A stretch of DNA of 64,000 nucleotides from an uncultured Bacteroidales bacterium. Lineage in GTDB: Bacteria > Bacteroidota > Bacteroidia > Bacteroidales > Paludibacteraceae. Of this stretch, positions 59,251 to 62,279 are shown piece by piece. The stretch spans positions 47,826 through 111,825 of the forward strand of contig ONEZ01000003.1 in the NCBI GenBank assembly GCA_900316995.1, written 5' to 3'. Both the position numbers and the translations under genes were made by a program. The notes below the pieces were generated by a model, which was not told the origin of the DNA, did no database searches, and saw only the letters and a program-made list of their open reading frames with translations. The first letter of the stretch is position 1; the number at the start of each line of letters is the position of its first letter.

Positions 59251-59282
59251 TTTGCATTTACTATTGTTAATTAGTAACTTTG
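59251..59282 (+). promoter_or_regulatory. Promoter of the coiled-coil/AmgK/MurU operon
   Basis: TTTG (59251-59254) and TAACTTTG (59275-59282) are 20 nt apart, a full Bacteroidetes match. The ATG at 59323 lies 40 nt downstream. Confidence 0.6.
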
Positions 59283-59322
59283 CACATCATAAATGTCATT
59301 AAGTATTAAAAACTTTATAGCC

Positions 59323-60126
59323 ATGAAAAAAATTGCATTAATTTTTGCAAACCTACTGATGCTCAGCACAGTAGCTATTTACGCTGCAAACAATGACAGC
59401 ACAGATGAAAAGGAGCCTTCAGTTGCATTTAAAATGTCAACAGTTAGCGGGCCGGAGAAAGAGTCTGTAAATGCCTTTACAGTAACCTATTCCTACCCTG
59501 CAAAAGATATGGAGGCAGCCATTATAGACCGTCTTGCGAAGGAGGGTATAAAGGGCAAGAAAGCCAAAAACAATTTTTACGCATTCAAAGGCGTTAAATA
59601 CAATCATCTTTGGTCACGCACATGCGATTTCTATGTTGCTGTAAACGGTTCAAAAACTTCCGGCACAATCTATCTGGTTATATCAACCGGTTATGACAAC
59701 TATATAATTGATGATGACGCAGAGCAAAACAAAGCTGTTTCAAAGTGGCTTACAGAACTTGAGAGTGACATCAAGAACTATATACACAACAATAAGATAG
59801 CTGAACAGGAGAAGGTTGTTAACGACGCAGACAAAGAGGTTGACAAACTCAAGAAAGAGAAAAGCAAGATAGAAAAGAATATTGAGAAGAATGAGGCCGC
59901 CATCAAAGCATTTGAGGCAAGCCGCATGATTCCAGACCAGAGCAATCCTAACGCTATAGACACCAAGACTTTGGAGAAAGAGCAAAAACAGTCCCAGAAA
60001 CTTACAGACCAGCAGAAAAAGCTTGAATATCAGCTTGATGAGATAAACAAGAAGATTGATAATGCTGAGAATGAGTACAGCAAAAACAAAAACAAACTTA
60101 AAGAGCTCAAAACCAACCGTCCATAA
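59323..60126 (+). CDS. Secreted coiled-coil protein of unknown function
   Basis: This 267-residue protein begins at the ATG at 59323, which opens a signal peptide (IALIFANLLMLSTVAIYAAN); an upstream start at 59293 would weaken it. Residues of about 25-155 are a small alpha/beta domain with several aromatic residues. Residues of about 160-267 are a long charged coiled coil (KEVDKLKKEKSKIEKNIEK, TLEKEQKQSQKLTDQQKKL). I do not recognise the family. It is 21 bp upstream of the AmgK-like fusion gene and shares its promoter, so it may be a periplasmic partner in cell-wall turnover, which is inference. Confidence 0.78.
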   Translation: MKKIALIFANLLMLSTVAIYAANNDSTDEKEPSVAFKMSTVSGPEKESVNAFTVTYSYPAKDMEAAIIDRLAKEGIKGKKAKNNFYAFKGVKYNHLWSRTCDFYVAVNGSKTSGTIYLVISTGYDNYIIDDDAEQNKAVSKWLTELESDIKNYIHNNKIAEQEKVVNDADKEVDKLKKEKSKIEKNIEKNEAAIKAFEASRMIPDQSNPNAIDTKTLEKEQKQSQKLTDQQKKLEYQLDEINKKIDNAENEYSKNKNKLKELKTNRP

Positions 60127-60147
60127 ACAAATAACGCACATTTTACC

Positions 60148-61545
60148 ATGACAGAGCTTGAAAAACTATTCTCCGGCATAGGCGACAAACTTGTAAGATG
60201 CGATACAATATCAGGTTCAGGCTCCAACCGTCAATATACAAGACTTCATGGTGAAAAAATTACCGCAATAGGTGTTTATGGAAAGGATGTCTGTGAAAAT
60301 AAAGCCTTTATTGCTTTAAGCAGACACTTCAAAGAAAAAGGCATAAAAGTTCCTCAGATACTGAACGTATCTGAGGACTTTCATTATTATATAACAGAAG
60401 ACTTAGGAGACACACAACTTTTCTCCCTTCTAAGCCCCGATGCACAGCCTGTAGAGCTACTTGAAAAATGTATGCAAGCACTACCAGATATACAGTATAA
60501 GGCAGGTGAGACACTTGATTACACATTATGCTATCCACAACAGGAGTTTGACCGCCACACAGTATTTTGGGATTTGAACTACTTTAAGTACGAATTTCTT
60601 AAACCTAACGGCATAGAGTTTGACGAACTGCTTTTAGAACAGGATTTTGAGCATTTTGCAGAGATTCTGCTTGCAGAAAATACAAACACCTTTATGTTCC
60701 GTGATTTTCAGTCACGAAACGTGATGGTCAAGGATGGAGAGCCTTTTTTTATAGACTACCAAGGAGGGCGCCGCGGGCCGGTGTACTATGATTTGGCATC
60801 GTTCGTTTATCAGGCTAAAGCCAGATTCTCAGAGCAACTCAAACAGCACCTTATTGACACTTACATTGCAGCAGCCAGCAAATACACAGCAATAAATCCA
60901 GCCCTATTTAGGGAAAGGCTTGAATACTTTGTTCTTTTCAGGAATCTGCAAACACTTGGAGCATACGGTTTCAGGGGGCTTGTTGAGCATAAAGCTCACT
61001 TTATTCAAAGCATTCCGTTTGGCATACATAACTTAAAGGAACTGCTCAAAGCAGCTAAATTTGAGGATCTTCCATACCTTACCAAAGTTCTCAATGAGCT
61101 TGTGGAAAACTACCAGGAACCTTTTGTAAACAACACCCGTGAACTCGTAGTAAAAGTCTATAGCTTCTCATACAAAAAGGGCATCCCTATGGACTACTCA
61201 GGCAACGGAGGCGGCTATGTATTTGATTGTAGAGCTGTGCATAACCCTGGAAAATATGAACAATACAAACAAAAAACAGGGCTTGACCAGGATGTTATAG
61301 ATTTCATTGAGCAAAATGGAGAAATGGCTGTATTTCTTGAGCATGTATATGCCCTTGCCGATGCAGCTGTGGCACGCTACCTTAAACGCGGATTCACAGA
61401 CCTAATGTTCTCATTTGGATGTACTGGAGGCCAGCATCGCTCGGTTTATGGAGCGCAGCACCTTGCAGAGCATCTGAACAGCAAGTTTGGTGTAAAGGTA
61501 GTGCTTGAGCACAGAGAGCGTGGCATAATCACTATTTTAACATGA
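60148..61545 (+). CDS. AmgK-like sugar kinase fused to a RapZ C-terminal domain
   Basis: This 465-residue protein has two parts. Residues of about 1-320 match the aminoglycoside-phosphotransferase-like fold of AmgK, which phosphorylates C1 of MurNAc or GlcNAc: catalytic Asp186 in FRDFQSRNVMV and metal Asp203 in FIDYQGGRRGP. Residues of about 332-460 match the C-terminal domain of RapZ: FDCRAVHNPG, TGLDQDV and GCTGGQHRSVY (Cys425 to Tyr434). In E. coli this domain binds glucosamine 6-phosphate and RNA. The next gene is MurU-like and overlaps by 4 bp (ATGA), which supports a cell-wall sugar salvage role. The fused domain has no proven role here. Confidence 0.85.
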   Translation: MTELEKLFSGIGDKLVRCDTISGSGSNRQYTRLHGEKITAIGVYGKDVCENKAFIALSRHFKEKGIKVPQILNVSEDFHYYITEDLGDTQLFSLLSPDAQPVELLEKCMQALPDIQYKAGETLDYTLCYPQQEFDRHTVFWDLNYFKYEFLKPNGIEFDELLLEQDFEHFAEILLAENTNTFMFRDFQSRNVMVKDGEPFFIDYQGGRRGPVYYDLASFVYQAKARFSEQLKQHLIDTYIAAASKYTAINPALFRERLEYFVLFRNLQTLGAYGFRGLVEHKAHFIQSIPFGIHNLKELLKAAKFEDLPYLTKVLNELVENYQEPFVNNTRELVVKVYSFSYKKGIPMDYSGNGGGYVFDCRAVHNPGKYEQYKQKTGLDQDVIDFIEQNGEMAVFLEHVYALADAAVARYLKRGFTDLMFSFGCTGGQHRSVYGAQHLAEHLNSKFGVKVVLEHRERGIITILT

Positions 61546-62279
61546 AAGCAATGATTTTTGCAGCCGGGCTTGGCACCAGGCTGAAACCAATTACAGACAC
61601 ACTGCCTAAGGCACTTGTACCTATTGCAGGCAAAACACTGCTTGAGCACACCATACTGAAACTTAAAAGCAGTGGATTTACAGATATTGTAATAAACGTA
61701 CACCACTTTGCTGGTCAGATAATTGATTTTCTGAAAGCCAACAATAACTTTGGCGTAAACATCTCTATATCAGACGAGAGCGAAATGCTCCTTGAAACAG
61801 GAGGTGGCATACGCAAAGCCGCTCCACTGCTCGGTTCAGAACCATTTCTTATACACAATGTTGATATAGTGTCTAATGTTGACTTGCGCAATCTGTATAA
61901 TGAACATGTTAAAACAGGCGCAGACGCCACACTTCTTGTAAGCAAAAGAGAATCTTCTCGTGCACTCCTATTTGACAATGACGGGAACCTTAAAGCATGG
62001 CGTAACAATAGCACAGGTGAGGTAAAGACTCCTTTTGAGAGCCTCGATATTAACTCACTGCAACCATATGCCTTTAGCGGAATACACGTATTCTCCCCGT
62101 CACTTTTTCCACAGATGAGCGGTTATCCAGATAAATTCCCCATAATGGATTTCTATCTTGACATCTGTAAAAAAGCAAAAATAAAAGCCTTGGTCTGCAA
62201 TGACCTAAGGCTTATAGATGTGGGAAAGCTAAATTCTCTCTCTGAGGCGGAAAAACTTGTCACAGAGTTAAACGCATAG
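61542..62279 (+). CDS. murU: MurU-like sugar-1-phosphate nucleotidyltransferase
   Basis: This 245-residue enzyme has the nucleotidyltransferase start MIFAAGLGTRLKPITDTLPK and AGKTLLEHTILKL, plus LLETGGGIRKAAPLLG and HNVDIVSNVDL. In Pseudomonas MurU uses MurNAc-1-phosphate and UTP to make UDP-MurNAc, bypassing de novo synthesis. The AmgK-like gene just upstream (4-bp overlap) makes MurU the best choice within this broad family; GlmU- or RmlA-like roles are less likely. It ends 5 bp from convergent serB. Confidence 0.85.
   Translation: MKAMIFAAGLGTRLKPITDTLPKALVPIAGKTLLEHTILKLKSSGFTDIVINVHHFAGQIIDFLKANNNFGVNISISDESEMLLETGGGIRKAAPLLGSEPFLIHNVDIVSNVDLRNLYNEHVKTGADATLLVSKRESSRALLFDNDGNLKAWRNNSTGEVKTPFESLDINSLQPYAFSGIHVFSPSLFPQMSGYPDKFPIMDFYLDICKKAKIKALVCNDLRLIDVGKLNSLSEAEKLVTELNA

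Follow-up and report, generated by a model that had tools for sequence, protein, structure and literature searches.

A RapZ C-terminal domain joined to an AmgK-like kinase beside MurU: a possible amino-sugar sensor in cell-wall sugar salvage

A 64,000-nucleotide stretch of DNA from an uncultured Bacteroidales bacterium (the window) encodes a protein in which an AmgK-like kinase of the APH fold is fused to the C-terminal domain of RapZ (RapZ_C). The 465-residue fusion is read in one uninterrupted frame (60148..61545, + strand; Pfam, NCBIfam and structural model), and the end of its gene has 4 bases in common with the start of a MurU-like nucleotidyltransferase gene (61542..62279, + strand; open reading frame (ORF), Pfam, NCBIfam and a MurU profile). 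A preliminary description of this DNA had proposed the fusion, the adjacent MurU-like gene and a built-in amino-sugar sensor; the first two are confirmed and the third is plausible. The best-supported role for RapZ_C is that of a regulator that binds a phosphosugar and acts on the salvage of cell-wall sugars, a reading given roughly even chances. It draws on the domains, the predicted fold of each half, the conservation of the RapZ_C pocket and the genome-wide tie between kinase, RapZ_C and MurU, all of which are observed. We infer the substrate, the ligand and the direction of regulation as follows. The APH half would phosphorylate the anomeric hydroxyl of N-acetylmuramic acid (MurNAc), N-acetylglucosamine (GlcNAc) or both, and the adjoining MurU-like enzyme would convert MurNAc-1-phosphate to UDP-MurNAc (uridine diphosphate-MurNAc). 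RapZ_C would bind a phosphorylated amino sugar, glucosamine-6-phosphate (GlcN6P) or a close relative, and would tune the kinase, in cis where the two are fused and in trans where RapZ_C is a separate gene, so that salvage would follow the amino-sugar phosphate pool.

The two halves of the protein are each recognized with confidence. The kinase half covers residues 1-322 (60148..61113, + strand; Pfam and alignment) and is matched by the APH family of Pfam over residues 52-243 with an E value of 6.6e-12, which exceeds the curated cut-off. A Foldseek search of the PDB with the full-length model places APH- and choline-kinase-like kinases on top, with 3csv first. The RapZ_C half, residues 334-457 (61147..61518, + strand; Pfam, AlphaFold model and Foldseek), is matched by PF22740 over its whole length with an E value of 5.1e-33 and 114 bits against a gathering cut-off of 27, and the NCBIfam RapZ model NF003828 matches residues 316-457 only. 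The AlphaFold model of this half has a predicted local distance difference test (pLDDT) score of 94.3 and a predicted template modelling (pTM) score of 0.89. It superimposes on the C-terminal domain (CTD) of E. coli RapZ (5o5s) with template modelling (TM) scores of 0.81/0.89 (0.89 by target), a root-mean-square deviation of 2.0, 34% identity and an E value of 6.5e-10; the top 16 Foldseek matches are all E. coli RapZ chains and the next match has an E value of 0.56. The GCTGGQHRS region, which the preliminary description had put up for checking, is RapZ-like by both the PF22740 match and the TM score of 0.89. The N-terminal P-loop NTPase domain of RapZ, PF03668, is not found by Pfam in the fusion and has 0 matches in the window's own draft genome, which is 83% complete, in agreement with the earlier statement that the ATPase half is missing. 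The full-length model has a mean pLDDT of 89.8 and a pTM of 0.69, with residues 327-330 below a pLDDT of 50; because of this pTM and the uncertain linker, the model does not fix the arrangement of the kinase half relative to the RapZ_C half.

The tie between the three genes was followed in a phylum sample of 296 genomes and an order sample of 149 genomes, which share at least G000 and G230. RapZ_C occurs in 36/296 phylum genomes, as a fusion in 27 (open frames of 472-524 residues) and free-standing in nine. Seven of the free-standing copies adjoin the kinase gene (six from family f5, plus G031) and two are unlinked, one about 547 kb from the kinase (G271) and one on another contig (G180). With limits of 250 bits for the kinase and 160 bits for MurU, which were placed at gaps in the scores after the search, the kinase subfamily is present in 36/36 genomes with RapZ_C and in 1/260 others (profile >250 bits), and MurU in 36/36 and 2/260 (profile >=160 bits). 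The single genome without RapZ_C above the kinase limit, G009, has adjacent kinase and MurU genes; it is also one of the two with MurU, the other being G231. The Fisher tests of co-occurrence with RapZ_C treat related genomes as independent, and the overlaps of MurU, AnmK and MurQ with RapZ_C were counted by eye, with one recount. In the order sample RapZ_C is found in 124/149 genomes and the kinase in 130/149, and in 123/124 the kinase is matched either within the RapZ_C frame or adjacent to RapZ_C on one contig; among these 123, seven are split into adjacent genes and two (G356 and G418) have a fused frame truncated at the end of a contig. Seven order genomes have the kinase without this RapZ_C, one as a contig-end fragment, which brings both samples together to eight. 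Within the two samples the dependence runs one way: every RapZ_C of this type comes with the kinase, but some kinases occur without RapZ_C. Because so many genomes share the architecture, it is not a chance arrangement. Family f18 contributes 63 genomes that score under the kinase limit, at 73-156 bits, and have no RapZ_C. In three of them (L132-L134) a distant AmgK-like kinase gene is directly followed by a MurU-like gene, and this family-f18 pair is a natural control for a kinase-MurU pair free of RapZ_C.

Among named genomes the fusion has at least 585 relatives, and the best 80 of these loci include Bacteroides, Parabacteroides, Phocaeicola, Prevotella, Tannerella, Chitinophagales, Ignavibacteriales and a bin called Calditrichia. 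The fusion is thus a widespread family, of which the window holds a typical member. Neighbours were counted in 77 of the 80 loci; the ORF caller did not pick up L057, L066 and L103, which bear the same motif, and they were omitted from the count. MurU lies directly downstream in 50 of the 77, and the contig ends too soon in three. The other 24 comprise five in which the fetched stretch has MurU at another place, 18 whose stretch has none and one in which kinase, RapZ_C and MurU are read in one 760-residue open frame (L072, 8001-10280). This triple frame comes from a single Bacteroidaceae metagenome bin and is possibly an assembly error. The earlier expectation that fusions always neighbour MurU therefore holds at the level of the genome (36/36) and fails for gene order, with MurU beside RapZ_C by coordinates in 28/36 phylum genomes and in 50/77 named loci. 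The split adjacent genes in seven phylum and seven order genomes, the two unlinked copies and the triple frame argue for one pathway. A second triple fusion, suspected in G298 from a frame of 750 residues, was rejected, since B3_4 and not MurU is the additional domain; it stands ahead of the kinase and RapZ_C (735 residues; L178, 4079-6283). An open-access literature search, covering titles, the opening of abstracts and term counts, found no paper on a kinase-RapZ_C fusion.

The kinase half carries RDFQSRN (R185-N191) and I202-D203-x-Q205, and the APH catalytic residues R185-D186-F187, N191 and D203 are invariant in 27/27 fusion kinases, which bears out the catalytic residues described earlier. 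Two AmgK models lead the NCBIfam matches of the window kinase with 54 and 31 bits (cut-offs 550 and 500), and so the AmgK equivalog cut-off is not reached. For the MurU-like protein the MurU models lead, NF045761 with 149 bits (cut-off 250, likewise not reached) and a second with 129, and the next model scores 87. The window kinase shares with AmgK, the N-acetylmuramate/N-acetylglucosamine anomeric kinase of Pseudomonas, the APH fold, the top NCBIfam match and the pairing with MurU, whereas its score of 54 against 550 bits and its RapZ_C domain set it apart as its own subfamily. The MurU-like protein shares with MurU its class, nucleotidyltransferase, and the top NCBIfam match, and differs in its score. 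The claim that the kinase works like AmgK is retained, and the claim that it belongs to AmgK is lowered. Scores this far under both cut-offs fit an alternative in which the AmgK and MurU names are wrong and the two enzymes make another nucleoside diphosphate (NDP) sugar rather than UDP-MurNAc. The gene content of the window genome is also in keeping with this: it has MurA and GlmS, and therefore does not depend on salvage, and neither AnmK nor MurQ was found in the 83% complete draft. Another NDP-sugar is nevertheless quite unlikely, since both AmgK models recognize 27/27 fusion kinases at E <= 1e-5 (Bud32 is a further match of one, at 7.7e-6), the MurU models lead and the gene tie is that of the AmgK-MurU pair. 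Moreover, AmgK and MurU have been assigned in Tannerella forsythia, in an anabolic MurNAc route (PMC7670621), and the AmgK-MurU pathway is presumed to occur in other Bacteroidetes too (PMC5790795); the fusion is not mentioned in the parts consulted of either paper.

The RapZ_C pocket was compared in an alignment of 112 RapZ_C rows with E. coli RapZ, two of which are gapped at the motif. GCTGGQHRS (residues 424-432; 61417..61443, + strand; alignments) forms the anion pocket, with C425, R431 and S432 at C-x5-R-S spacing. In E. coli numbering, C247, T248, G249, H252 and R253 are kept in 110/110 rows that reach the motif. The 77 named rows were picked by a motif filter (TGG.HR), and the scan of named genomes used GCTGGQHR and GGG patterns; because the named loci were selected by motif, invariance is claimed from the phylum genomes found by Pfam, where GCTGG[QR]HRSV occurs in 36/36. 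Two features depart from E. coli RapZ. H190 is replaced by Gly in 112/112 rows, and a GGG insert (residues 354-356; 61207..61215, + strand; alignment) stands ahead of the dimer strand in 112/112 rows. The insert is specific to the subfamily, being absent from E. coli RapZ and from 12/12 non-fusion RapZ_C, a set made up of E. coli, seven other RapZ (plasmid records), one viral contig and three actinomycete plasmids, two of the 12 having been found through the motif filter. Position 190 is His in five of these, Tyr in three, Phe in three and Pro in one; it varies within the RapZ_C family, and the Gly of the fusions therefore marks a changed pocket rather than a dead one. The E. coli RapZ-CTD alone binds GlcN6P with a KD of 10 nM by surface plasmon resonance (SPR) and responds without the N-domain, and the putative metabolite site is reported to be widely conserved (PMC7073468, as far as consulted). 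GlcN6P, the ligand first suggested, is favoured by an anion pocket that is mostly kept and made uncertain by H190 to Gly and the added GGG loop, on account of which the ligand may be other than GlcN6P.

The same pocket could belong to an enzyme. RapZ_C would then use its C-x5-R-S anion cradle and essential cysteine for phosphoryl transfer on an amino-sugar phosphate beside the kinase, for example a dephosphorylation that feeds the kinase in the manner of MupP. The same spacing of Cys, Arg and Ser, on a loop that joins strand to helix and binds anions, is found in cysteine phosphatases carrying C-x5-R-S/T, for example the low-molecular-weight protein tyrosine phosphatase (PTP). In contrast, no cysteine phosphatase fold appears among the best 50 of 223 Foldseek matches (E <= 10) to the RapZ_C model, in which RapZ is the sole good match, and PTP homology was rejected. 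We know of no phosphatase activity of RapZ_C. The loop Cys, GG, His, Arg and Ser together with D182, R184 and H276 are kept in 12/12 non-fusion RapZ_C from several phyla and plasmids, the loop is invariant in the 36 phylum genomes, and conservation is higher in RapZ_C than in the kinase: 28/124 positions are invariant against 41/320 in the kinase half, and mean pairwise identity is 0.559 against 0.452, with RapZ_C higher in 339/351 non-independent pairs. RapZ_C also occurs on a polypeptide of its own, a further point in favour. The mild substitution C247S is enough to inactivate E. coli RapZ, and a possible catalytic role of the thiol has been suggested by the authors of that work (PMC9841335, as far as consulted). 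The pathway context does not favour MurNAc-6-phosphate as the general substrate. AnmK is equally frequent in phylum genomes with and without RapZ_C (25/36 and 182/260), MurQ is rarer with RapZ_C (16/36 vs 194/260; E <= 1e-60), and neither was seen in 8/36 genomes with RapZ_C, the window genome among them. This pattern speaks against MurNAc-6-phosphate as a general ligand or substrate, and a replacement of MupP, in which RapZ_C makes MurNAc from MurNAc-6-phosphate for the kinase, is unsupported as a general role. Overall, an enzymatic RapZ_C is unlikely.

RNA binding was the other role proposed for the fused domain, as post-transcriptional feedback on salvage. The E. coli RapZ-CTD suffices for RNA binding (PMC5737377, as far as consulted). 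Among seven basic residues named for RNA contact in E. coli RapZ (PMC9841335), R184 is kept in 112/112 rows, K170 as Lys or Arg in 104/112 and R196 as Lys or Arg in 96/112, and the pocket residues touched by RNA in E. coli are kept save H190. The remaining four, K194, R211, R238 and K251, are not kept. The C-terminal basic cluster of K270, K281, R282 and K283 is not kept as such in the 112 rows, and the window has no GlmY/GlmZ match that reaches the Rfam gathering score. The RNA-binding region is reported to be limited to Enterobacteriaceae (PMC7073468, as far as consulted). RNA-binding feedback is therefore not supported and is highly improbable. The fusion thus shares with RapZ/YvcJ, the RNase adapter built of PF03668 and PF22740, the C-terminal fold, the C-T-G-G-x-H-R-S pocket and the dimerizing strand, and differs in having a kinase in place of the P-loop NTPase half, in the Gly at position 190 and the GGG insert, and in lacking four of the seven RNA-contact residues.

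The dimerizing strand raises the possibility that RapZ_C is mainly a scaffold that brings together two kinases and perhaps MurU. The E. coli CTD dimerizes via strand 179-182, YVFD (PMC5737377, as far as consulted), and [FY]VFD is kept in 27/27 fusions; the triple frame, with MurU on the same chain, also fits such a role. A scaffold needs no pocket loop, however, and the loop is invariant; unlinked and separate copies persist, and in the family-f5 copies this strand reads FTFD or FAFD. A mainly structural RapZ_C is improbable. The history of the domain is consistent with an accessory part. A quick tree of 51 kinases, with 13/14 split kinases entered (L181 was left out) and many branches weakly supported, contains at least six changes between fused and split states, of which well-supported branches force three, and at least four changes between kinases with and without RapZ_C, of which such branches force two. 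RapZ_C is repeatedly missing while the kinase stays, which fits an accessory part, and no RapZ_C remnants were found near the kinase-only genes in seven loci scanned (one a contig-end fragment; G390 was left out).

Several points weigh against the sensor reading. We know of no ligand or kinase assay of any such fusion. The full-length model, with its pTM of 0.69, yields no reliable docking of the two domains, the kinase and MurU scores lie well under the NCBIfam cut-offs, and AnmK and MurQ were not found in the 83% complete draft. The nearest row to the window kinase in the tree is that of G297, a kinase without RapZ_C, and the kinase half has changed faster than RapZ_C, which would be unusual if RapZ_C were no more than a regulatory add-on. 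H190A abolishes the activity of E. coli RapZ (PMC9841335, as far as consulted), and this residue is the one replaced by Gly in every row. The effect of GlcN6P on RNA release in E. coli took 1-5 mM in gel shifts, against the nanomolar affinity found by SPR (PMC7073468, as far as consulted).

Upstream of the fusion lies a gene for a secreted coiled-coil protein (59323..60126, + strand, with an alternative ORF start at 59293; ORF and homologue counts). The protein has a signal-peptide-like start and, by eye, a coiled-coil C-terminal half; it belongs to no known family, and Pfam gives weak coiled-coil family matches only. A Bacteroidetes-type promoter match, TTTG-n20-TAACTTTG (59251..59282, + strand), was found by a pattern scan with the consensus, and it is the predicted operon promoter. 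The pattern has six matches in the whole window against 1.83 expected, and 1/100 shuffles reaches six. This match is upstream of the coiled-coil gene, so the layout fits a unit running from promoter to murU, and 59251-62279 is predicted to be a single transcription unit. The operon with a secreted coiled-coil protein that had been described is accordingly consistent in its coordinates; the gene itself is lineage-specific. Homologues were found in 3/149 order genomes (the window's own included, and one weak, E 1e-4), and one lies upstream of the fusion only in L031 among the best 80 named loci. The coiled-coil protein was therefore rejected as a conserved partner and is taken as a lineage-specific neighbour that probably has no share in the mechanism.

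RapZ_C is also found with other partners. Genes for RapZ_C without the ATPase half occur on Streptomyces and Nocardiopsis plasmids (L195, 2501-3382; L196, 2495-2893; L194, 2495-2872). They are labelled RNase adapter RapZ or are unnamed, and one, on a Streptomyces plasmid, is fused to a Nudix domain; among 86 records matching the E. coli CTD, 31 are from Streptomyces, and three records were inspected. In G390, RapZ_C is joined to a GlmR/YvcK-like protein of the CofD family (L200, 1792-3153, contig C118). Beside it are a glutamine-amidotransferase gene, whose start reads GlmS-like, and a gene for a hexapeptide protein that could be GlmU-like. This copy was rejected as a member of the kinase fusions; it is of the RapZ_C-CofD/GlmR type and on another contig than the G390 kinase, which has no RapZ_C. 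Contig C118 is possibly foreign or contaminating in this bin, and its G+C content of 41% vs 38% does not decide the matter. A canonical-looking RapZ gene, cut at the start of the stretch, is present on an IMG/VR contig (L186, 379-708), which is probably bacterial or prophage DNA. Phosphosugar or nucleotide chemistry is common to the partners of RapZ_C, and the CofD/GlmR-type and Nudix partners count in favour of the sensor reading. A broader proposal, which is rather unlikely, is that RapZ_C is at root a cysteine-dependent phosphosugar enzyme, neither sensor nor RNA binder, common to RapZ/YvcJ, the kinase, GlmR-type and Nudix fusions and the single plasmid copies, that it was recruited for RNA binding in E. 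coli, and that in Bacteroidota-type genomes it carries out an unrecognized step linked with the salvage kinase.

Research on RapZ has centred on its work as an RNA adapter, but the enterobacterial RNAs that it serves have a far narrower distribution than its C-terminal domain (PMC7073468, as far as consulted). The present observations hint that the RapZ tail acts primarily on sugars, with RNA as a target in some bacteria only. The label 'RNase adapter RapZ', which public records give to the fusion in Parabacteroides distasonis and Bacteroides finegoldii, is misleading. In genome after genome RapZ_C accompanies a kinase for cell-wall sugars, its pocket is changed and its RNA-contact surface altered, and its original role can therefore be addressed in a soluble enzyme of two domains whose activity can be measured. 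RapZ_C would also mark an unrecognized control point, or step, in the peptidoglycan salvage of common gut bacteria such as Bacteroides, Parabacteroides, Prevotella and Phocaeicola.

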